A DNA stretch of 64,000 nucleotides from Spinellus fusiger (Eukaryota > Mucoromycota > Mucoromycetes > Mucorales > Phycomycetaceae). Positions 892 through 59,837 of this stretch are shown piece by piece. Position numbers and translations under genes: made by a program. Under the pieces are notes generated by a model. That model was not told where the DNA came from. It did not search any database and saw nothing but the letters and a program-made list of their open reading frames with translations. Positions within the stretch are counted from its first letter, which is position 1, and every line of letters starts with the position of its first letter. The stretch is from positions 186,001 through 250,000 of the forward strand of contig JALLLS010000024.1 of NCBI GenBank assembly GCA_025094145.1, given 5' to 3'.

Positions 892-1969
892 TACAGTTAA
901 TATATAAAATAAAGAAGTCAACACCATATCTTTGATTCCGTACAAAAGGGTGGTTTATACCCTTGGTGAAGAATAGTTGTTGGTTCCTGCTCTGTTCCTG
1001 TTTGTTCCCTTTGTTTGTATTTTTCGTTGATCCATCGTTAGGAAGGTTGCCGTTATCTGTCTTCTTGTGTCCCCACAGATCTACTCTCAGAGTGTCCCTT
1101 CCAGACCATCACAACCATAGTTCTTGCAGCCGCAAAGAACCGAGTTCCCCATCTTCCATTTACGAGCCCCCCTCCAGCGCATACACTTGCAAGAGCAGCC
1201 AGTATTTCTCTGAGGCACTGCGTGTCTCCAGAAATATCCCATTGCTCAACCGTAAAGATGTAAAAGGAAGGATATATCACTGCTTAAAGGCAAGAAAAAT
1301 ATGCTGTACTATGCCGATTTGTATTACTATCCTTTATGCCTATGTCATGGGAGATCAATCATTTTCTACTTTTGCATAAGATCATACTGTAATATTTGAG
1401 TGGATAATTTAAAATAGTAGCTTCAGAAAAAGACAGGAGATGAACTCAACATAGAAACATCCTCGGAGTCAATAAATATGCCATTGAAAATGAAATACCA
1501 AAAATGGGATAAAAAGAAGAATAGATACAATTATGCAATATCTATATTGTAAATAGAGATTACGAATAAGAAGGAAATGTTCCAACTATAGATGCATGTA
1601 TCACATTGACGGTTCTATTAAATTATTCATGCATTTATACTAGAACCATAGCTTCACGATAACAAAGAAAAATAAAACAAACAATAATTAGTACACAGAA
1701 TATTATTGTAGTCTTGAGTCAGTCAAGGTAGTCTATGTCTATGTATATATACACATATACGAAGATGGTTACTACAAAGGATATCAACGAGACTATTCAA
1801 TTAATATACACAAACAGTAATCTACGATAATAATAATAATAATAAGGATGTATAATAAAATATGCACAAATATGCACAAATATCAGTCATTCAACGGCAT
1901 GAATAAACATTTAAACACGACTATCTAAAAGACAGAATAGTATCACTGTAACATACATGCAGAGATAAG

Positions 1970-1978
1970 TATAAAAAG
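1970..1978 (+). promoter_or_regulatory. TATA-like box of secreted-protein gene copy 1
   Basis: TATAAAAAG lies 66 bp upstream of the ATG at 2044. The same box is kept at the same distance in copy 2 (near 46140, minus strand). Confidence 0.45.
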
Positions 1979-2043
1979 TTAGCCTACACACACTCTTTTT
2001 TTTGTTATTCATACTACTCTTTAACTGCCACCATCTTACTACT

Positions 2044-2687
2044 ATGTTGAAATCTGTTTTGATTCTCATCTTTGCCTTGGCCTCTCTTTCTTTTGTTTCT
2101 GCTGGGGAGAATTATAATGATATCATCAAACTGTAAGTCATTTATTATTAATAGTGGTCATCTGTGTGTCTTTTTACTAGTTTGTACTAATAAACAATTC
2201 AGTGTGAATCCCCACACTAATGAGCTGTTGATAGTTGGAAAGAATTACACTTTTACTTGGTATACTCTCAACATACACTTGTTTTTTATTGAATTAACAT
2301 GTGCGTGATTGTCTAGGGAAATAAATGATCCTAAAAATAAACTTCCCAAGAATGCCACGCAAGTATTGAAAAAGTCATAGTCAATGTTTATTCATGTTTC
2401 TATATTTAGTGCTGATCTGTATTATGAGGACTTTAGAGAACATAGTCCACCAAGTAAGCATATTGAAGAGTGTAAATAATAGATACAAATAACGTTATAC
2501 TCTTTTTTTTATAGTATACCTTCGCCATGGAATTCCTATCAATCAAAAATCTATGGAAGTAAAAATCGTCGATTCTCATTTTAAAGCGTCTGTTACTCCT
2601 ATTGTACTACATATTAATAACGGTGATCCAGACAATGTTATTTTTGCATACTCTTTAGTCGGTGTATCTAACCCAAAAATAAATTAG
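2044..2687 (+). CDS. Small secreted protein, copy 1 (hypervariable pair), five exons
   Basis: Proposed exons are 2044-2132, 2203-2259, 2317-2362, 2429-2453 and 2515-2687, giving 129 residues. The start is the first ATG after a TATA box and is followed by a clear signal peptide (LILIFALASLSFVSA, cleavage near residue 20). Intron 1 has a TACTAAT branch site 10 nt before its CAG acceptor. The mature part has the pattern VNPHTNELLIVGKNYTFTW, which loosely resembles the start of KRE9/KNH1-type Ig-like domains of fungal wall proteins; this resemblance is weak. The last residues and the stop fall in sequence aligned with the Tc1 terminal repeat of copy 2, so the original C-terminus has probably been replaced. 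Function unknown. Introns match copy 2 almost perfectly while exons do not. Confidence 0.6.
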
Positions 2688-2771
2688 GAATATTTTAAAT
2701 TTAGACCATAATTTTACCCTTGAATAAGTTTTGTTTATTAAACATTATTCATTTATCGCTTTTCCACTCTA

Positions 2772-3018
2772 ATGTCTACCTCATCTAACACCACCGAACA
2801 CACCAAAAAGACCTCTTGGAAACAGGAAAAAAGAAATAGTGACGACTATAATCATTGTCTCATTGCTCAAGAGACCACTGCAAATGAGACCACTCATGTT
2901 GCCATCTCTGCTAGGTTTGGAGTTAGTAAGCAGTCTATCTCCCGTATCGTAAAGAGATACAAAGAAACTGGTTGCTTCAAGGCCAAAAGAAGCACCGGGA
3001 GTAAGCTCATTCTCGGTT
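2772..3018 (+). pseudogene. Tc1 transposase N-terminal fragment
   Basis: The frame opens with MSTSSNTTE and includes the helix-turn-helix stretch ARFGVSKQSISRIVKRY. It matches the N-terminus of the intact transposase at 58581 and of the decayed copy at 44.1-45.45 kb. It is cut off after about 80 residues where the IS630-like element begins. Confidence 0.85.
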
Positions 3019-3028
3019 AGAAAGACTA

Positions 3029-4948
3029 CACACCCAAAGATTTTTGGGATACAGTCAGGCTTATGGAATTTGGCGTTTTCTCAAAAATAATTGGCCTTAA
3101 GTCATAAATAAATGTCCACTTTAGAAAAAATAAATGTCACGAGTTTAGATTATTTTTGTCACAACCTGTCAATTAAAATGGTCGTAACGCCAATTAACAT
3201 TAGCCAGAATATTACATTTAATTGGCACACCTCTTTGGCGACTTTTCATGATAACAACATGATATATAATTCATAAGAATATTTATTTAAAAGAGACACT
3301 TATACTAAAATGGTGTCTTATTATAACAATTAATGATTTGGCACTTAGAATGATTACAAAAGGCATAAAGGTTACTAATGAATACATCATTACAAGCATC
3401 GCCAATCCTGCTTGACAAATTTTCTTCATTCATAAGTCTATCACGCTTCATCTTCCCTTTAACTATTGCCCAAAATTGTTCGATGGGGTTTAATTCAGGC
3501 GAATAAGGAGGAAGGTAAATGACTTTATAGCCTTTACTTTCAATTTTACGTATCATTGGCTTGGATTTATGGATAGAAGCATTATCCATAACGATGTAAC
3601 TTCCCTTAAAAGTTTGATCAAGATCCATGATAGAAAGAAGCTCGTTCATAAATTTGACAAAGTGCGCTGTAGTTGTACTTTTTGGTACTAACTTATTATC
3701 GGCTGGGTCATCATCAACTTGTGGATATGCTGTACTAATTTCAGTTGCAGATCTTTTCTTTCCATTATTAGCCTTTATCCTTTTTTTTTTGCAGTCTATG
3801 TTTCTTTTCTTGGTGGAGGCTTTTTGATGGCAACATGGATGATACTAACGAGTGAATAGCACCAATGATTGTATGAGATGTAGCTCTGGTTTTTTGTTGC
3901 TTTACTACTGCAGTGCTACCTTTTTTTGATCTCGCCCAATTATTTCTCATGTTGATATGAAAACCTGCCTCATCAATGAAGATGCAGTTTCTTGTAAAAT
4001 TCATATCAGAGTCTTTCCATTCCATGAACCACGCATATCTCGTCTGTAGGTTTTTTATTGAGTTTCTAACTTCAGGTTCAAACGTCGGCTGTTTTACAGT
4101 GATGAGCATTGTGTTTCGCAAATGGGTATTCATTTGCGATTTTGAAATACTAAATCCTTCAAATCACTCAGTCAAACTTTTTATTATGTCATCCGAATGC
4201 AACTGAGGGTCGTTATCAAGAAGCTCTTTAATATACTTATTATGTTCGATTATAAAAGAACTTTTCGGGCCGGAGTTTTGCTCACTATTTTTATATGCTA
4301 TTTCTTCTGTTTCTTCATAGACATGCCACCATCTTAATGCAGTACGATATTTAATATTCAAATTTCATGCAACCTCAGCAACTAGTCCATGCTCTTGAGG
4401 ACTTTCAAGCATACGGTCAATGAACGTTTCCCGGGTGAAATCGCTGTAATCACTGTATTATTTTACTGGTGGGCTCAAATTGTTAGATTTCGGCTGCTTC
4501 TTAGCTGAAGACTCATCAGAAGTTTTCTCAGGACGCTTAGCGTTCAAGTAAGTTTCCCGACTAGTTATTGTTTCAAGAACTATGTTGGGATCATCGGCTT
4601 GCGTTAAAACATCCTCCATTGGATCATAAACTTTCTCGCCTTGTTTATTAAAAATGTTTTCTTGTCCATCATAAAAGAAAAGAATTCATCATTATATTAT
4701 ATTTTATCAAGAAGAGAAAAGGTACAAAAAAAGTTGCCAAAGAGGTGTGCCAATTAAATGTAATATTCTGGCTAATGTTAATTGGCAAGTTACGACCATT
4801 TTAATTGACAGGTTGTGACAAAAATAATCTAAACTCGTGACATTTATTTTTTCTAAAGTGGACATTTATTTATGACTTAAGGCCAATTATTTTTGAGAAA
4901 ACGCCAAATTCCATAAGCCTGACTGTATCCCAAAAATCTTTGGGTGTG
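3029..4948. mobile_element. IS630/mariner-like element with about 220-bp terminal inverted repeats
   Basis: Positions 3029-3245 and about 4738-4948 are inverted copies of each other with few mismatches. Both ends begin CACACCCAAAG and are flanked by TA (3027-3028 and 4949-4950), the Tc1/mariner target duplication. Inside is a decayed DDE transposase on the minus strand. The element sits at the cut end of the Tc1 fragment (2772-3018). Its first 23 bp are identical to an end of the Fanzor-family repeat at 50393-50415. Confidence 0.85.
3305..4690 (-). pseudogene. IS630/Tc1-type transposase (DDE_3-like), broken
   Basis: Read on the minus strand, the pieces give an N-terminal region (DGQENIFNKQGEKV from about 4670), a helix-turn-helix region, CIFIDEAGFHINMR with the first catalytic Asp, IVMDNASIHKSK with the second, and YSPELNPIEQFW with the Glu. 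At least three in-frame stops interrupt the N-terminal half, and a frameshift lies near 3830. The element therefore cannot supply transposase itself, although its ends look well kept. Confidence 0.8.
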
Positions 4949-41399: not shown

Positions 41400-42485
41400 T
41401 TATTTTTTTGCTGGGCCACCTTTGGCATCAATAACTGTCTGGCAGTGATCCTTCATTGAGCCAAATAAACGTTCGGCAAGATCGACATGAATATTTCTCC
41501 AAGCTTCTTCTAAATCTGTCTTGAGTTCATCAATATTATTAATACTGGCCCTCTTGTTATCAATAAGCTTATCAAGACAGCTCAAGGGATGTTCAATGGG
41601 GTTGAGATCAGGACTTTGGGCAGGCCAGTAATCAAAACGCCTAATTACATGTGTGTTTTTCCACCATGTTGTATAGCCACCTGTATGGCAGCTAGCTCCA
41701 TCTTCTTGGAATATGAAGTCCCTGTTCTCTATCTCATTCAATTCAATGAACCATGGCAGAAATTTTTCTGCCAAAATATTGACATATATGTCCTGATTCA
41801 CAGTGCTATCAACAAAGACCAAAGGCCCAAATCCACCTGCCCAGAAACATCTCCAGATCATTATGCTGCCTTTCCCCCATTTGGTTGTAAGTATGATATG
41901 AGCAGCCTTATACCTCTCTCCTATCTTTCGAATCACTCTGGTTCCTCCCTGGTAACCCTCTACTTCAAACTGTGACTCATCAGACCATACGACGCGTCTC
42001 CAGTCCTTAGGAGTCCAATTGACCCGTTCCTTCACCCAACAAAGTCTTTTCTTCATGTTTTCTTCAGACAACCTTGGCTTGTGTGCTGCGAAGTAGGAAC
42101 CAAACTCAATCTGGTATATGTATTTGATGAATGTTGCTCTACAGATGATTATCTGATGTGCCTTAAGTTCAAAATTTATGAAGTTATAGGAGGCAGATGG
42201 GTTGCCTCTAATGACCTTTTCCGAGTATTTGAGGTCCCTCTCACTGGCTTTCTTAGGTTTTCCATGACTCTTTAAACGCAATGGTGACCCACGTTCTTTG
42301 ATGTTTCTGATACTATTTTGAACTGTGGGATTTTTCATCTCAACTACGTTTGCGAATACAGTCAATTTTAATACAGCCTTAAACAGGTAATAAATGCCCC
42401 ATAGCTTTTTATCTTCTGCTTTGTCATATTCTCCACGAGTGTGTGTTTCTGAAAATTTATCTGGCATAGTGTGTTGGTTTAACAC
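41400..42485 (-). CDS. Tc1-like transposase, uninterrupted 361 residues
   Basis: A full-length open frame. The N-terminus carries a helix-turn-helix type DNA-binding region (about residues 40-90, VQNSIRNIKERG). The catalytic core follows: WSDESQFEVEG with the first Asp, FQEDGASCHTG with the second and SPDLNPIEH with the Glu, 35 residues apart by hand count. It is a different lineage from the 58.5-kb transposase. Length and motif completeness suggest a recently active copy, but matched terminal inverted repeats were not found by eye. IMIWRCFW has Arg where Gly is usual (MIWG), a possible damaging change. Confidence 0.8.
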   Translation of the reverse strand: MLNQHTMPDKFSETHTRGEYDKAEDKKLWGIYYLFKAVLKLTVFANVVEMKNPTVQNSIRNIKERGSPLRLKSHGKPKKASERDLKYSEKVIRGNPSASYNFINFELKAHQIIICRATFIKYIYQIEFGSYFAAHKPRLSEENMKKRLCWVKERVNWTPKDWRRVVWSDESQFEVEGYQGGTRVIRKIGERYKAAHIILTTKWGKGSIMIWRCFWAGGFGPLVFVDSTVNQDIYVNILAEKFLPWFIELNEIENRDFIFQEDGASCHTGGYTTWWKNTHVIRRFDYWPAQSPDLNPIEHPLSCLDKLIDNKRASINNIDELKTDLEEAWRNIHVDLAERLFGSMKDHCQTVIDAKGGPAKK

Positions 42486-43376
42486 TATTTGGAAAGAAGA
42501 AGAGTTTTCTGCAAAGAATTTTTTTTATTAAAATTTAGACAAGTATTAAATTCAATTGTGTGTGGCTGTATCTACCAAATACATTCAAATATCTGATGAT
42601 ACATATTATTGAATTAAATATTTGATAATAAAGAGTTTGTTAATAAAGAGTTTGTTAATAAAACATAATTAGTATATCTGAATTTTCTTGATGTATCTCA
42701 AGTACTTTTGTTATATCTCTAGGTTACTTGAATCATCTGATACTATCAAGATATATGGAGAATTGATCATCTAATCTTATAAAGAGTGTATGAGTTATTT
42801 AAAGTACAAATACCTCTATATTTATTGTTGTAGGTTACCAATAACAATAGTATCTCAGATCAATGATTGAATTATGGACATATTCTCTTTTGGAGAAGGC
42901 TTTAGTTTTTAAAGTAGTGATAAAGCACTCACAAATAAATCAGATGCAACGGATCTTCCAGCAGAGCATCTCAACAGCATAAACCCAAGCAAATAATCAC
43001 TTGCCATAGATAGAGATATCCATCATCCCCGTCAATAGAAACACAGACTACCTAAAAGGGACCATACAATAGAAGAAAGGTTAGCATCGAGGCGTGTATC
43101 TAAGAGATGATACTTTAGCAATAGAGGGATTTTTATTAGAATCACTATATATTATCAATCAAAAAATTATAAAACAAGTTCAAAAGAGTAAATAAAGATC
43201 AGACTTTGTTTACTCTTTGAACTTTCCGGACTTCCTTTGGTTGAAGCCAAAGACAATAACCCAGGCGGACTCTCTCATCACCACCTGAGACCAAAAATAG
43301 GGTCCCGCACAATGCTGCCTTGGAATATGAATCCCAAATTAGATGTCGCACAGTTCTGATAAACATTGGCTTGATG
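42486..43376. other. Intergenic region with repeat fragment
   Basis: No gene seen. 43312-43372 matches the flanks of the LTR at 54419-54620 without the LTR (see findings). Confidence 0.5.
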
Positions 43377-44094: not shown

Positions 44095-45453
44095 CAGTAG
44101 CTTTCAAAATAATAAGGAAGATTTTTCATATCCCGGTATGCTTCTGTAATAGGAAATACTTCTTCTTTGTCATAAAAACATACATTAAACACACAGTATA
44201 GACTTAAAGATTGGATAAAGTATAAAAAAGGTCAACAGGATAATAAATACAAGATTATTGGGTGGAAACTCTTAATATTTGGTGTTTCCACCCTTGGCAT
44301 CTATCACAGCCCTACATCTCTGCCCCATGCTGGCAATGAGGGTGTCTGTAGTGTCCTTGGGAATATTCTCCCATTCTTTTAACAAGAGCACCTCCAAATC
44401 TTTTAGAGTACTTCTTGGGGTTATACTCTTTCTAATGGTCCTGTAAAGTTCTTCCTATAAATGCTCTATGGGGTTGAGGTTGGGGCTTTGTGAGGACCAC
44501 CCCTCCATAGTGACAATGCTCTCTTGTGTCTTCCACAACCTGGACTCTCTACTCTTGTGGCAGTTGTCATTATTCTCTTGAAGAACATAATCAATCTCTG
44601 GATTCAGTGCCTTGAGTCGAGCCAGCTCAGGGCAGTAGTTATCCTTTAAGATCCTGATGTATCTTCTACTGTCAATACTGCCCGTCACAGGCACCCACCT
44701 TCCAACACCTTCACTAGAGAAGGAATCCCACACCATCACCCCACCACCACCAAACTTCATGGTAGGCTTTATGTTCTTTGATATTAGACCCTCCTTCTTT
44801 CTTAGTACTACACTGGTGCGGTTATTGGTTCTCATCAGTTGATACATTGACTCATCGAACTAGATGGCTGTCTTGCAGTCTTCTGTCCAGTGAAGATAGG
44901 CCTTAGCCCAAGAAAGTCTCAACTTCTTGTGTTTAATAGTGAGGGAAGGTTTCTTAACCACTCTGCAAGAAAACAGGCCAAGCTTCATCAATTTTCTAAA
45001 AGTGTTCATGGACACTTGGGTGGTCATTTGCTTGCAAAGTTGATCCATTGTCTGGAATGAATCCCTTCCCACTTCGCGACTGACCTCTCTCTCTTCCCTC
45101 TCATTAAGAATGGGCTTACTCCCGGTGCTTCTTTTGGCCTTGAAGCAACCAGTTTCTTTGTATCTCTTTACAACACGGGAAACTGGCTGCTTACTAACTC
45201 CAAACCTAGCAGAGATGGCAACATGAGTGGTCTCATTGGCAGTGGCCTCTTGAGCAATGAGACAATTATTATAGTCGTCACTTTCTTTTTTTCCTGTTTC
45301 CAATAGGTCTTTTTGGTGTGTTCGGTGGTGTTAGATGAGGTAGACATTAGAGTGGAAAAGCGATAAACAAAGAATGTTTAATAAATAAAATTTATTCAAG
45401 GGTAAAATTATGGTCTAAATTTGAGATATCCCTATTATTATTTGAGTCAACTA
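44095..45453 (-). mobile_element. Tc1 element, decayed full-length copy
   Basis: The end at 44095 (CAGTAGCTTTCAAAATAATA, preceded by TA) matches the intact element's terminal repeat. The other end at about 45453 (GTTGACTCAAATAATAATAG on the minus strand) is a diverged form. Its transposase is broken. The same insertion is shared by the duplicated segment at 2.7-3.0 kb, so insertion came before duplication. Confidence 0.8.
44300..45347 (-). pseudogene. Tc1 transposase, broken
   Basis: Aligned by eye with the intact 359-residue protein at 58581-59660. There is a frameshift near 45290, a Trp-to-stop (TGG to TAG) just before FDES, a changed second catalytic Asp (QEN instead of QED) and another TGG to TAG after PIEHL. 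Several changes are C-to-T or G-to-A. The helix-turn-helix ARFGVSKQPVSRVVKRY and terminal KGGNTKY are kept. Confidence 0.85.
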
Positions 45454-46840
45454 TAATGACTGGAATGAATGCAAAAATAGCATTGTCTGCATCACCGTTA
45501 TTAATGTTTAGTTTAATAGGAGTACTAGACGCTTTAAAATGAGGACTGATGATTTCTATTGTCATTACTCCTTGGTTGATAGGAATTCCACGGCGAAGGT
45601 ATACTATAAAAAAAAGAGCATAACGTTATTTGTATCTATTATTTACACTCTTCAATATGCTTACTTGGTGGACTATGTTCTCTAAAGTCCTCATACGACA
45701 GATCAGCACTAAATATAGAAACATGAATAAACATTGACTATGGCTTTTTAATACTTGCGTGGCATTCTTGGGAAGTTTATTTTCAGGATCATTTGTTCTC
45801 CTAGACAATCACGCACATGTTAATTCAATACAAAACAAGTGTATGTTGAGAGTATACCATGCAAAAGTGTAATTCTTTCCAATGAACAATGCCTCTCCAT
45901 AATTGGGCCTCACACTGAATTGTTTATTAGTACAAACTAGTAAAAAGACACACAGATGACTACTATTAATAATAAATGACTTACAATCTGATGATATTAT
46001 TAACATTATTCCCAGCAGAAACAAAAGAAAGAGAGGCCAAGGCAAAGATGGGAATCAAAACAGATTTCAACATAGTAGTAAGATGGTGGCAGTTAAAGAG
46101 TAGTATGAATAACAAAAAAAAAGAGTGTGTGTAGGCTACCTTTTTATACTTATCTCTGCATGTATGTTACAGTGATACTATTCTGTCTTTTAGATAGTCA
46201 TGTTTAAATGTTTATTCATGCCGTTGAATGACTGATATTTTTGCATATTTTATTATACATCCTTATTATTATTATCGTAGATTACTGTTTGTGTCTATTC
46301 ATTGAATAGTCTCGTTGATATCCTTTGTAGTAACCATCTTCGTATATGTGTATAAATACATAAACATAGACTACCTTGACTGACTCAAGACTACAATAAT
46401 ATTCTGTGTACTGATTATTGTTTGTTTTATTTTTCTTTGTTATAGTGAAGCTATAGTTATAGTATAAATGCATGAATAATTTAATAGAACTGTCAATGGG
46501 ATACATGCATCTATAGTTGGAATATTTCCTTATTCGTAACTTCTATTTACAATATAGATATTGCATAATTGTATCTATTCTTCTTTTTATCCCATTTTTG
46601 GTGTTTCATTTTCAATGGCATATTTATTGACTCCAAGGATGTTTCTATGTGGAGCTCATCTCTTGTCTTTTTCTGAAGCTATTATTTTAAGTTATCCACT
46701 CAAAGACTAGAGTATGATCTTATGCAAAAGTAGAAAATGATTGATCTCCCATGACATAGGCATAAAGGATAGTAATACAAATCGGCATAGTACAGCATAT
46801 TTTTCTGGCCTTTAAGCAGTAATATCTTCTTCCTTTTACG
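45110..46840. repeat. Duplicated segment, copy 2 (inverted relative to 1250-3018)
   Basis: Reverse-complement match to copy 1 across the secreted-protein gene, its 5' flank and the Tc1 N-terminal region. Here the Tc1 element continues to its other end (44095), while copy 1 was cut by another transposon. At its outer side (46790-46840) it runs into a Fanzor-family element end, as copy 1 does. Confidence 0.85.
45392..46073 (-). CDS. Small secreted protein, copy 2 (hypervariable pair), five exons
   Basis: Exons 46073-45985, 45914-45858, 45800-45755, 45689-45665 and 45603-45392 match copy 1 border for border and close in frame. The protein is about 143 residues. The signal peptide is nearly unchanged (one Leu-to-Pro). 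The mature protein is strongly different: FVRPNYGEALFIGKNYTFAW against LVNPHTNELLIVGKNYTFTW in copy 1, and INQGVMTIEIISPHF against INQKSMEVKIVDSHF. The last about 20 codons, from near 45453, read into the Tc1 terminal repeat, giving a C-terminus unlike copy 1. A TATAAAAAG box precedes it near 46140. Function unknown; a KRE9/KNH1-like fold is only a weak suggestion. Confidence 0.55.
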
Positions 46841-48008
46841 TCGAAAAATATTTTGCCCTTTTATGGAATAATAATTAAAATCAAAGGTTTGCAAGTATCC
46901 AAATATTTATTTCTTTTTGTAGAATACCTCAGTATCAAATTGTATTATCAGTAAAATATAGTGTTTATAAATAAGATTATTTATTATAATAGTATAGCTA
47001 ATACTATATTATGACTATAGCTACTGCCTAAGTGAACACCCTCTTATCAATAGAATCCACACCCTAAAGGCCTTGTGCTTTATTCTTGGGTGATAAATAA
47101 CTATACTTAAGAGTATACCCTAGAGACCCTAGATAGTATAGAAGACCACCTAAGAATAACTTGAAAGGAGTCTTTACTTGCCTAATAACAATGCAATGAA
47201 TGTCTTGTGGAATACAATGAGCTCAAGCCCAGATAAAGACACTGCTTACCTTCTCATCTCTAAAACAGTCTTTGGTGGTGTCTATTACTTCTCTCTATTG
47301 TTTCTCTTTGTTAATAATAGTGCATTACCTTGCTTATTTATGTTCATATTGAAGAGTACTTAGGTGTTAAGTTGTATGTGCAGTGCGGGAAATAACAAAA
47401 GGAGGGGAACATCAAAACAAATAATTCCTCTCTCTCTATTCTGGTAACGTATACATTTTAGTCTTCACTCATAAAATTCACAAGTCAAACAATTCATACT
47501 CTATTTGCCTTGGGCCTAAAGGACAGTATTAGAAACAATACCTTGTTATCATTAAGTGCTGTTGTTAATACCAATTACAATGAGATAATTGAGGTGATTA
47601 TAGATATTGAGTCAATAAATGAACACACTGTTCTTAACACGAGTAAGCTTGGCTATTTTCTAGACAATTATCACTAGAGTTAACTCTATAAGTTCTGTAA
47701 TACATCTTTCTTAAGCAGTGCTATGCTGCAAATACTATGAGCTTAAGGATAACACATTATGTTAAGAGAAGAATATCAGTGACTGAGTTGTAATTTTGGG
47801 GTGATTTTTGTTCTATTTCTTGTTTTTACAGCTAATTCTATACTTTTTAATTGCAAAAGTCAATAGCCATTGCTAAAATAGGTAATCAGAGTTTGAGATA
47901 GTTTATTTAGACAGCGAAAAGGTCTTTTTAAACACATTGGCCAATCATAAGAATATTGCGGTTTTATTCTCAGGATATTTTCTTATATATCCCAAAAATC
48001 TTTGGGTG
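46790..48008 (+). mobile_element. Fanzor-family element, deleted form, left of the peroxidase gene
   Basis: Same family as 29913-33016 but without the Fanzor coding region. The left end is worn (TTTTTCTGGCCTTTAAGC near 46800). The right end reads ...AAAAATCTTTGGGTG before TA at 48009-48010. From 46870 on it is nearly identical to 50393-51788 inverted. Confidence 0.8.
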
Positions 48009-51788: not shown

Positions 51789-52277
51789 ACACAGATACAT
51801 ATAAGGTGATAATTGCGTCGTAAGGTGTGATATAGCCTCGGCTATAGAATGGGTAGTCGACGTTTTGCCATGCATTCACAGTGTTGGAGGTGCATGAGAT
51901 AAAATTAGATGTAGATAACAACACAAGGAAAACAGTGTATAGAAATCACATTATTTGAACATTCAATAAAATATTGACCTTTTTGTTAATGTTAAGTATC
52001 ATTGGAACTATTGAGAGAAGCAAGGATTGCTTAAAGAATAGTTGCCCAGTTACCAGTTGTGTTCAAATTGTGTGTTGTGTCTTTGCTTCCTTACCCCTTG
52101 GAATCCCTTAAACCATACTCTGTGTCAAAAACCTATTTCGTCGTCCCTGCTAGAGACTGAACTACTACCAATTCATCTCTCTAATGGTCTTGTTGATAAC
52201 CAAAGTGCCCTTTATTAAAAAGGTAAAAGAAAGGTTGTGTCACTGTTTAAAGTCAGATAAATCTTCTGCTGTGTATT
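51789..52277. other. Repeat fragments
   Basis: About 52010-52215 matches, inverted, the region near 31740-31950 of the Fanzor-carrying element (shared ACACAACACACGATTTG-like stretch). The remainder shows no gene. Confidence 0.5.
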
Positions 52278-52291
52278 AAAAAATGAGCTCC
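52278..52291 (+). repeat. Target-site duplication, 5' copy, of the LINE
   Basis: AAAAAATGAGCTCC, repeated exactly at 54304-54317 on the other side of the LINE. Confidence 0.9.
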
Positions 52292-54303
52292 GCTCACTCA
52301 CCCAATCTCGTGGTCTTCGTCAGGGAGATCCTCTCTCTCCTGTGCTTTTCAATCTTGCTTTTGAGCCTCTGTTGCGTCGTTTGCTCCATGATACGACATT
52401 CAAGGGTCTCTCTCCTCCTCCACACCCAAGTCTTTCCCAGCCTCCTGCTCTCAAGTTTCTAGCCTATGCAGACGATCTCTTAGTCTTTCTACCCGACCAT
52501 GCTCATTTACATCGCTTACAGGAGCATCTTACTACGTACTCTGCAGCATCCAACGCTCGCATTAATATGCACAAAACACAAGCCTTTTCTCTTTCGGGTG
52601 CTCCCCAGCCCTTATGGACTCCAATCCTTCAGCAGTACAATATCACAGACTGGCATGACCGTCGTTCACCAGAACCTCTTAGGTATCTTGGGTTTCCCTT
52701 GATGACTTCTCTACCACAGAGAGATGTCTTTTGCAAGTCGCTTTTGTCGAAGATAGAAGCTACCTGCAATATACATCTTTCTCGTTCTTTGTCTGTTCGT
52801 GGCTGTGCAACAGTGCCCAACACTCTTGTTCTCTCGACTCTTTGGCATGTTCTTCGTGTAGTGTCTCCTCCCTCTGTGTTCTTCCAGAAGGTACGGTCAC
52901 TCATGGGTCGTTTCCTCCAGCACTGCATGTTCCCTCCCATAAAGCTTGCTACTTTATGCTCTCGGACTAGCCATGGTGGATTAGGTATCTTGGATCCCAG
53001 TATCCAACAAAGTGCTCTCCAATTGCGTTGACTTGTTCCTTTTTGTTTGTCCCCTCGTTCTCCTTCTGGTTTAGTTCCTCCGTGGTTCTCATATCTTCTG
53101 CAAGTGGCTGCCCCTTCATTGGATCCTCTCTATTGTCTTTTGTTTCCCGATCTTCGTCCTTCTATCTATTGTTCTCTGAGTAGTGCATTCCACTCGATCT
53201 TTAGTGCAATAGACCGATTGCCACACTCCTTTGAAAAGATTGCAGTGAATCTTCCCACTTGTCTTGAGCTTCCGCTTTCTTCTGCTTGTTTTGTTGCTTC
53301 TGGCTCTCCAGCTTTCCTTCGCTCCTGGCGTGCTCTCCGAGTTAGTGATGCTTTTGAGGTGAATCAAGAGCTTGACGTTCTGCAGCGCCGTCTCCCTGGT
53401 GGCCTTACCAATTATCCACGCATTGTTCGCAAGTTTTTTCGTAGAATTGATAGCCAATCCTTACTCTTACAGCCCTTCCTCCTCAGAGCGTCGTTACCTG
53501 TCCAATGGGTACAGACTCTCTTTCCTTTGCTTTCTCCTGGGACTGGATCTACAGTAGACATCTCTCCTTTCCTTTCTGCTTTGGTACCCTCCAAGCCATG
53601 GTCTCGTCTCTCTCCACGTCTTTATCGAAACATATGCATGCGAGTATCCTCACCAGCACCTTCCTTTAACCCTCCTCTTCGTCCATCCCACTGGAAAGAG
53701 CTCTGGTCTTTGCCATTACAGCATATTACTCGCAATGTAGGGTACCGGGCTCTTCACAGCAAGCTTTCATGCCGCTCTCTCCTACACAAGCTTGTTCCCT
53801 CTTCCTTTCCCTCCGGCATTTGTCTTGTTTGTTTGGCCGCTGAAGATACACAAGAGCACCTTCTTTTTACTTGTCCAAAGAAATGGTCTTTTTGGTCCTC
53901 CTTTTGGCACAAACATTTTGGCCTCTCTCCCCAGCCCTCCGACCTTGTTGCAGCTCTTCTCTCTTTTGTTTTTCCTAAGGCCAGTGTCTCTAATACTCCC
54001 AACGTCTCTATCTTTGGCTGTGCTCTTTTGGCTATATGGCGCCACCATTGGATGTTCATATTCGATAATGTACCTGTTACCTCCTCTGCTGTTCTCTCGT
54101 CTGCTACTCGCCTCTTGGACCGTCTCCAGTCAGAACTTGATATGGACATTGAGTAACACAGTGCTCTCTCCCTGTTAAAAATTATTACTTAATTAGAAAA
54201 ACAATAGAAAATTAGAAAAGCCAAAAACAAGTTGTGACTCTCTTTTCCTCCCTAAAAAAAAGATTATCACCAAATAAACTCAGAGCCAGAGGCTCCATAC
54301 AAA
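52292..54303 (+). mobile_element. 5'-truncated LINE (family 2) with 14-bp target duplication
   Basis: Starts inside the reverse transcriptase and ends in a short A-rich 3' tail (GGCTCCATACAAAAA). Exact 14-bp direct repeats (52278-52291 and 54304-54317) mark both borders, so this is a single target-primed insertion, truncated at its 5' end. Its 3' UTR differs from that of the family-1 LINEs at 43.4 and 58-61.5 kb. Confidence 0.92.
52293..54156 (+). pseudogene. LINE ORF2 C-terminal part: reverse transcriptase and zinc-knuckle region
   Basis: The frame shows SRGLRQGDPLSPVLFNLAFE and FLAYADDLLVF (catalytic YADD), the thumb-like region, and a C-terminal Cys/His motif (CLVCLAAEDTQEHLLFTCP). One in-frame TGA at 53029-53031 stands where a Trp (TGG) is likely; otherwise the frame is open to 54156. 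The endonuclease domain and N-terminal reverse transcriptase are absent by truncation. Confidence 0.9.
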
Positions 54304-58474: not shown

Positions 58475-59837
58475 CAGTGGCTTTCAATAAAACAATGGCT
58501 ATTTCAAATTCAGACCCTAATTTTACCCTTAAAAATTCTTTTTTTATTAAACATTCTTCATTTATTGCTTTTCCACTCTAATGTCTACCTCATCTAACAC
58601 CACCGAACAACCCATGAGACCTCTTGGAAACAGAAAAAAGAATATCGATGACTTCACTCGATGCCTCATTGCTCACGAGGCCACCGTAAATGGGACCAGC
58701 CTGGTTGCCATTTCTGCTAGGTTTGGAGTTAGTAGGCAGTCTGTTTCCCTTATCGTAAAGAGATATAAGGAAACTGGCTGTTTCAAGGCCAAGAAGAGCA
58801 CTGGGCGCAAGCCCATTCTTAATGAGAGAGACGAAAGAGAAGTTGATCGCGAAGTGGCAAGAGATTCATTCCAGACGATGGATCAGCGTCGCAAGCAGAT
58901 GACCACCCAAGTGTCCATGAACACTTTTAGAAAATTAATGAAGAAGCTTGGCCTGTTTTCTTGCAGGGTGGTCAAGAAACCTTCTCTCACTACTAAGCAC
59001 AAGAAGTTGAGACTTGCTTGGGCCAAGGCCCACCTCCGCTGGACTGAGGAAGACTGGAAGACAGTCATCTGGTCCGATGAGTCAAAGTACCAACTCATGA
59101 GGACCAACAACCGCAACAGAGTGGTGCGCAAGAAGAAGGAGGGGCTGCTCCCAAAGAACATCAAGCTCACCATGAAGTTTGGTGGTGGTTGTGTGATGGT
59201 GTGGGGTTCTTTCTCTGGTGAAGGTGTTGGAAGGTTGGTGCCTGTGAAGGGCAGTAGAGACAGTAGAAGATACATTGATATCTTGAAGGAGAATTACTGC
59301 CCTGAGCTGGATCGACTCAAGGCACTGAATCCAGAGGTGGATTATGTTCTTCAAGAGGACAATGCCAGCTGCCACAAGAGTAGAGAGTCCAGGTTGTGGA
59401 AGGCAAATGAGAGCATTGCCACCATGGAGGGGTGGCCTTCCCAGAGCCCCGATCTCAACCCCATAGAGCACCAATGGGAGGTGCTTGACAGAGCAATAAG
59501 AAAAAGGATGACCCCAAGAAGTACTCTTCAAGATTTGGAGGTGCTTCTGTTGGAAGAATGGGAGAATATTCCCAAGGACACTACAGACACCCTCATTGCC
59601 AGCATGGGGCGGAGATGCAAGGCTGTCATTGAGGCCAAGGGTGGAAACACCAAATATTGAAGTTTTCCACTCAATAAACTTGTATTTATTATTCTGTTGT
59701 CCTTCTTTATAATTCATCCAATTTTCAAGTCTCTACTGTGTGTTTAATGTATGTTTTTATTACAAAGAATAAGTATTTCCTATTGCAGAATCATAACGGG
59801 GTATGAAAAAAAACCATTATTATTTTGAAAGCCACTG
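58475..59837 (+). mobile_element. Complete Tc1 element, apparently intact
   Basis: Ends CAGTGGCTTTCAATAAAACA and, inverted, CAGTGGCTTTCAAAATAATA form imperfect terminal repeats of about 25 bp. TA flanks both sides (58473-58474 and 59838-59839). The 1363-bp element carries one uninterrupted transposase. It lies between opposed LINE fragments. Confidence 0.92.
58581..59660 (+). CDS. Tc1 transposase, 359 residues, intact
   Basis: A cut-and-paste transposase. The N-terminal paired-type helix-turn-helix includes ARFGVSRQSVSLIVKRYKE. The basic linker KKLRLAWAKAHLRW leads to the catalytic core: WSDESKYQ (Asp 1), LQEDNASCHKS (Asp 2) and SPDLNPIEHQW (Glu), with 35 residues between Asp 2 and Glu by hand count. 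GGCVMVWGSFS is the expected glycine-rich strand. The C-terminus ends AKGGNTKY. No stops or frameshifts. Codon use is rich in G/C-ending codons relative to the AT-rich surroundings. Decayed relatives lie at 2772 and 44.3-45.3 kb. It could be active and may mobilise them. Confidence 0.93.
   Translation: MSTSSNTTEQPMRPLGNRKKNIDDFTRCLIAHEATVNGTSLVAISARFGVSRQSVSLIVKRYKETGCFKAKKSTGRKPILNERDEREVDREVARDSFQTMDQRRKQMTTQVSMNTFRKLMKKLGLFSCRVVKKPSLTTKHKKLRLAWAKAHLRWTEEDWKTVIWSDESKYQLMRTNNRNRVVRKKKEGLLPKNIKLTMKFGGGCVMVWGSFSGEGVGRLVPVKGSRDSRRYIDILKENYCPELDRLKALNPEVDYVLQEDNASCHKSRESRLWKANESIATMEGWPSQSPDLNPIEHQWEVLDRAIRKRMTPRSTLQDLEVLLLEEWENIPKDTTDTLIASMGRRCKAVIEAKGGNTKY

Follow-up and report, generated by a model that had tools for sequence, protein, structure and literature searches.

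Two genes for putative secreted proteins in the genome of Spinellus fusiger, together with a third close copy, differ far more in their exons than in their introns, and comparison of these copies and of a second recent group indicates that the rate at which amino-acid changes became fixed has far outstripped that of silent changes and of changes in introns or flanks, with a third group pointing weakly in the same direction. As judged from sequence alone, duplication has carried the family to which these genes belong to about 43 loci, and parts of exon 5 are reshuffled by recombination among the copies. We consider it rather likely that these are recently expanded secreted proteins, facing a host or a rival, that are under extreme diversifying selection combined with segment shuffling.

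Position and structure of the two copies

The window analysed here is a stretch of 64,000 nucleotides on the contig labelled C115, and the genome searched comprises 38.08 Mb in 197 contigs. Copy 1 (L009) lies at 2044-2687 on the plus strand and copy 2 (L010) at 46073-45392 on the minus strand, exactly where the initial annotation had placed them; a third close copy is labelled L011. The features of copies 1 and 2, in window positions, are as follows.

1257..2043, plus strand: copy 1 shared 5' flank (about -785 to the ATG), about 96% identity with copy 2
1970..1977, plus strand: copy 1 putative TATA box, 74 bases before the ATG, recognised by sequence and alignment
2044..2132, plus strand: copy 1 exon 1, encoding the putative signal peptide and the beginning of the mature part
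2133..2202, plus strand: copy 1 intron 1, 1/70 differs from copy 2
2203..2259, plus strand: copy 1 exon 2, 17/57 differ from copy 2
2260..2316, plus strand: copy 1 intron 2, 1/57 differs from copy 2
2317..2358, plus strand: copy 1 exon 3, 4/42 differ from copy 2
2359..2409, plus strand: copy 1 intron 3, GC-AG type, 1/50 differs from copy 2
2410..2453, plus strand: copy 1 exon 4, hypervariable core, 2/44 differ from copy 2, random-like against other close copies
2454..2514, plus strand: copy 1 intron 4, 1/61 differs from copy 2
2515..2687, plus strand: copy 1 exon 5 to the stop, 36/173 differ from copy 2
45985..46073, minus strand: copy 2 exon 1
45858..45914, minus strand: copy 2 exon 2
45759..45800, minus strand: copy 2 exon 3, followed by the GC-AG donor
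45665..45708, minus strand: copy 2 exon 4
45392..45603, minus strand: copy 2 exon 5, longer than that of copy 1 and with a different end
46074..46842, minus strand: copy 2 shared 5' flank

Five exons with identical borders had been described for the pair. The five-exon structure holds, with the same phases and with exons 1-4 of 89, 57, 42 and 44 nt in both copies, but the 3' ends are not identical, since copy 2 reads beyond the homologous stop and its last exon has 212 nt against 173 nt in copy 1. Open frames across the five exons of copies 1 and 2 require a GC-AG donor (GCAAG) at intron 3; the adjoining GT donor (CAA/GTATT) was rejected, as by hand reading it would make exon 4 open with a stop codon. 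The scripts that chose the splice sites preferred open frames. The splice models of the family deserve trust, since four independent NCBI models were recovered by the same procedure, with agreement in all four of the relatives that have one: those of L038 and L051 are identical to the NCBI models, that of L045 is the same except for one final residue (a partial entry), and that of L033 is contained within an NCBI model with 15 extra N-terminal residues. The latter begins at an in-frame ATG 15 codons upstream, so that the signal peptide would no longer stand at the N-terminus; this is perhaps an annotation choice. Copies 1, 2 and L011 all retain open frames.

GC-type donors (GCAAG) recur in L009-L014, L016, L020-L024, L026-L028, L030 and L031, mostly at intron 3, with L024, L028, L030 and L031 having one at intron 1; L015 has ACAAG at the place of the intron-3 donor. 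Elsewhere in the window there are open frames that we take, by eye, to be like Tc1/mariner transposases (2771-3013, 44860-45330, 58551-59660, 41400-42524, 102-605 and 3305-3844), and open frames at 52261-54156 are presumably like a LINE reverse transcriptase. One transposase-like frame starts 84 bases past the stop of copy 1 and has been duplicated along with the family copies on C115. Rfam gave no match within the 64-kb window at gathering thresholds.

Divergence of exons, introns and flank

The initial annotation had counted 8 differences in about 250 intron bases and 53 in 354 exon bases; these figures were slightly off, with their sense unchanged. On recount copies 1 and 2 differ at 4/238 intron positions against 59/316 in exons 2-5 (Fisher p 2e-11), copy 1 and L011 at 3/235 against 56/310 (p 1e-11), and copy 2 and L011 at 1/234 against 57/310 (p 4e-14). 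Between copies 1 and 2 exon 1 differs at 8/89 positions, and the 17/57 previously given for exon 2 was obtained again. Their 5' flank, for which about 3% had been estimated, differs by 3-4% out to about -785, and by less near the ATG. Intron divergence within the trio of copies 1, 2 and L011 (0.4-1.7%) is below that of the flank (3-4%), and thus the introns are somewhat constrained. Dating by introns presumes that they are near neutral, and with the flank as reference the contrast is milder, exon divergence being about 5-6 fold higher. Introns and flanks would look conserved mainly from the short time since duplication, with constraint on splicing and on the promoter adding to this.

Nearly all of the exon changes alter residues, as had been noticed by hand: 43 of 134 codons differ between copies 1 and 2 with a single silent difference (AAT>AAC, codon 87), and the signal peptide is indeed changed only once (L8P). 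Across the three pairs of the trio there are 43, 50 and 55 differing codons, of which 1, 2 and 1 are silent, and at 14/134 codons the three copies carry three different residues.

The family across the genome

The search for further paralogues that had been suggested was productive, yielding about 43 loci in the S. fusiger genome. Copy 1 as a DNA query found 31 loci (34 rows, three of them second pieces), and L033, L038 and L024 as DNA queries found 12 further loci; L047 matches the family in its flank and start only. An open five-exon model was obtained for 27 of the 43 (14 from one batch, 11 from another, and L034 and L035 with hand-set intron borders), which is an upper figure since the script preferred open frames; 13 are broken by the models used and three (L029, L032 and L047) are without a model. 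By similarity a young clade of 30 loci and a deeper clade of 13 (L038 and L040-L051) were defined. Five close pairs are inverted, 7-44 kb apart, on C115, C113, C173 and C176 (L009/L010, L011/L012, L030/L031, L036/L037 and L020/L023), and L036/L037 have 99.97% identity over 3.9 kb.

In 12 diverged members of the young clade, aligned in 50-base segments, mean identity is 0.60-0.76 in the flank from -750 and rises to 0.84 from -50 to the ATG; it is 0.73-0.79 in the segments holding most of introns 1-3, 0.63 in the intron-4 segment, and 0.45-0.62 in mostly-exon segments beyond the signal peptide. Letters of the TATA(A/T)A type stand at the same place in 22/23 aligned members, L040 having TATTAAAA there.

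Protein searches, which reached only relatives sharing exact 5-residue words, gave no match at E<=0.01 from copy 1 and only itself from L033, and the family alignment found four annotated S. fusiger proteins, all matches at E<=0.01 being from this species. Against the genome in six frames the L033 protein gave 12 rows, five of which are its own exons and the remainder weak. The DNA queries, carrying conserved flank and introns, find about 43 loci and so show a route where protein search fails. The family is young and apparently lineage-restricted in S. fusiger (Phycomycetaceae, Mucorales).

Codon tests of selection

Accelerated amino-acid-changing evolution of the secreted protein, the central proposal of the initial annotation, finds support in the trio, from both counts and likelihood, in a second cluster and, weakly, in a third pair. 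Codon maximum likelihood (our own code, one omega, star tree) gives the C115 trio an omega of 4.3 overall and 5.4 for the mature part (likelihood ratio test p 3.8e-5 and 1.1e-5). Among single-base codon changes, for which the expected silent share is 0.25, the ratios of replacement to silent changes (N:S) in the three pairs are 19:1, 28:2 and 34:1 (p 0.022, 0.009 and 0.0005), or 16:2, 28:2 and 32:2 by gapped protein alignment. The second cluster (L024/L030/L031) has ratios of 17:2, 15:3 and 18:1 with 2, 2 and 0 intron differences in 231, and the third pair (L034/L035) has 4:0 with introns at 2/241, which is too small to stand alone. Pooling one pair from each of the three clusters gives 38 replacement and 4 silent changes (p 0.011). 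The group L017/L018/L019 shows no excess (omega 0.58, p 0.37; N:S 4:4, 8:5 and 7:2). By the NG86 method dN/dS for copies 1 and 2 is only 1.6, a low value because many codons changed at two or three bases, and the method counts the intermediate steps as partly silent.

A family dN/dS at or below 1 had been named as evidence against acceleration, and here the outcome is divided, since recent pairs are mostly above 1 and deeper pairs, which are saturated, mostly at or below it. Within the young clade dN/dS exceeds 1 in 8/10 pairs at dS<0.2 (one of the eight being L017/L019, at 0.035/0.028), in 31/77 at dS 0.2-1 and in 0/4 beyond, and within the deeper clade in 0/55 pairs, of which 46 have dS >=1 or undefined. 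With saturated dS and doubtful alignments, the deep values neither refute nor support acceleration. Exons 2-5 are more different than introns in 44/45 young pairs (10 members) and in 51/55 old pairs (11 members). The old clade was rejected as a "normal" control, as its exons align no better than shuffled ones (0.356 against 0.338).

An excess of exon differences might also arise without positive selection, through relaxed constraint, through decay into pseudogenes or through a bias of mutation that acts on exons alone, such as biased gene conversion or targeted mutation. The broken loci (13/43 by the models used) would fit such decay, and codons with multi-base changes, 23/43, 20/50 and 20/55 of those changed in the trio pairs, are commoner than simple point substitution suggests. 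Relaxed constraint, however, yields a dN/dS of 1 at most, and these explanations are also at odds with the silent differences in same-residue codons of the trio (1.7%, 3.5% and 1.9%), which are near intron and flank rates, with the open frames of copies 1, 2 and L011, and with the balance of weak-to-strong and strong-to-weak differences (31/24, 23/28 and 22/34, unpolarised). Biased gene conversion was rejected on the last of these, there being no GC bias among the unpolarised changes, and we regard this whole class of explanation as highly improbable.

Exchange between copies

The initial annotation had offered a mosaic origin by gene conversion as an alternative, and this proves to be real in the family, although it does not account for most of what separates copies 1 and 2. 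In its strong form the variant exon stretches would be old alleles of other family members, imported by conversion events that used the conserved introns as anchors, the apparent acceleration then being ancient variation on young backbones. Exon 5 of the cluster on C113 is a clear mosaic on nearly identical introns: the first 87 bases of the L024 exon recur unchanged in L030, and the part from about base 90 onwards recurs in L031. Between L030 and L031 there is no difference in 912 flank bases or in 231 intron bases, but exon 5 differs at 30/158 positions. Similarly, exon 5 of L013 has one stretch like L009 and the next like L010. In the trio changed codons cluster mildly (longest runs 7, 9 and 9; shuffle p 0.047, 0.022 and 0.040) and exon 4 is block-like, both of which suit exchange; outside exon 4, however, changed codons are mostly interspersed with unchanged ones. 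Furthermore, silent differences in unchanged codons at most two positions from a changed codon number 1/53, 0/55 and 0/57 in the trio pairs, which is close to the rate in introns, against a dS of about 0.5-1.9 or saturation among deep paralogues. Exchange with old paralogues would import silent differences and these neighbours are clean, so the bulk of the trio's differences are probably selected replacements. On the other side, four-fold third positions inside changed codons differ at 3/9, 0/6 and 1/5.

Exon 4 looks to be replaced as a block. It is 44 nt long in eight close copies, which between them carry six unrelated-looking cores (L009 and L010 share one, L011 and L012 another, and L013, L014, L015 and L016 have one each). 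Exchange would call for donors, and a genome-wide search for two of the cores found none at <=3 mismatches; when all six were compared with 46 fetched loci the best non-self matches were about as good as those of 20 shuffled queries per core, the L009 core coming to within 7 mismatches where its shuffled versions came no closer than 8. Ancient exchange as the general source of the variation is in our view unlikely.

The inverted pair L011/L012 has no substitutions from -700 to past the gene, the whole 3.4 kb being 97.7% identical, and a recent conversion of the gene unit is possible.

Fold and likely function

The proteins are of about 110-150 aa and consist of a signal peptide, a putative one read by eye from the conserved hydrophobic N-terminus, and one predicted Ig-like, Kre9/KNH-like beta-sandwich domain. 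Only the L033 product among 12 proteins scanned passes the gathering cut-off of PF10342 (25.1 bits against 24.6, over nearly the whole domain); seven of the 12 match at E<=1, six of them below the cut-off (copy 1 at 13.7 bits), and the other five, including copy 2 and L011, give no match at E<=1. A genome search with PF10342 pointed to seven other places; three were fetched (L052-L054) and rejected, none of them beating E 0.23 against the family DNA profile. The predicted model of the L033 product (P0001) is an eight-stranded, Ig-like beta-sandwich with a mean pLDDT of 74 and blocks of 73-92 from residue 41; it is the best of five models (the others having pLDDT 55-66), was built from four sequences, three of them NCBI relatives, and represents L033 rather than copies 1 and 2. 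Its fold matches are Ig-like and FnIII-like, that is, generic sandwiches. A sequence search of solved structures was set aside, its best hit (E 0.029) not being credible. Copies 1 and 2 have no cysteines.

A check whether the variable residues form one surface had been proposed. Assigned to strand or loop, the 65 variable sites of the trio fall in both and are spread across the whole domain. By alignment, exon 4 probably spans strand C of the sandwich and the loop that follows it.

Spinellus has been named a facultative mycoparasite (PMC8480134), and we propose that the family proteins are secreted binders facing a host or a rival, which may have the effector, recognition or defence role first suggested for them. 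The proteins would be secreted under a common TATA promoter and share the same sandwich fold, and the mature surface, with the exon-4 strand and loop foremost, would contact a changing partner, for which a molecule from the parasitised mushroom or from a competing microbe is the likeliest candidate. Every new surface variant would then be favoured, losers would decay and shuffling would add combinations.

The same diversifying selection could instead serve self/non-self or mate recognition within the species. A secreted, predicted Ig-like repertoire with a common promoter-like flank would suit such a role as well, and the data do not separate the partners; dozens of dispersed and often broken copies would, however, seem to fit birth-and-death effector families better, and we hold recognition within the species to be distinctly improbable. 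It is also conceivable, although quite unlikely, that the fungus carries in its germline a repertoire of secreted binders, each a single Ig-fold domain, acting like variable domains, in which framework and promoter would be fixed, exon 4 renewed almost wholesale in most copies, point changes made elsewhere, and segments shuffled by recombination between copies, several of which form inverted pairs.

If selection driven by a host or rival is the right reading, an early-diverging fungus gains a family with a very clean contrast of exon and intron as a mark of diversifying selection, on an Ig-like scaffold and in a mushroom parasite. To our knowledge few host-facing proteins have been described in mushroom parasites.

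Comparison with known systems

The Spinellus family is new, and the pattern that it displays is already known in conotoxins and in the bicycle proteins of aphids. Literature searches on Spinellus returned no title concerning its proteins, those on Kre9/KNH in Mucorales nothing on this family in titles and abstract starts, and among the matches listed for hypervariable fungal gene families and mucoralean mycoparasite effectors none dealt with it.

Kre9 and Knh1 of yeast are cell-wall glucan proteins. The Spinellus family resembles Kre9/KNH (PF10342) in that L033 passes the cut-off and in its predicted beta-sandwich, and is unlike Kre9/Knh1 in being short, single-domain and poorly conserved.

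In the conotoxin superfamilies of cone snails introns are conserved within a superfamily, as is the signal sequence, and the mature peptides differ (PMC3862624). Both systems have duplicated secreted genes with conserved introns, a conserved signal sequence, putative in Spinellus, and a differing mature part. Conotoxins, however, are described as venom peptides of animals, built on cysteine frameworks and encoded by genes with introns of >3 kb (PMC3862624), whereas the Spinellus family has a predicted Ig-like sandwich, belongs to a fungus and has short introns, of 50-70 bases, within the stretch that encodes the mature domain itself.

The bicycle genes of gall aphids encode secreted proteins with little sequence homology, for which extremely strong positive selection is reported (PMC9168663, PMC13041983). 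Gene structure is better conserved than sequence both in these and in the Spinellus family; the bicycle genes differ in having many micro-exons, a saposin-like fold and a role as insect salivary effectors. Finally, the pea aphid cassette effectors KQY/KHI are reported to combine a conserved signal-peptide cassette with a divergent secreted remainder (PMC7495047), a division that is also seen in the Spinellus family, although 33 of the 37 exons of KQY1a are no longer than 15 bp (PMC7495047), against the five fixed-phase exons found here.
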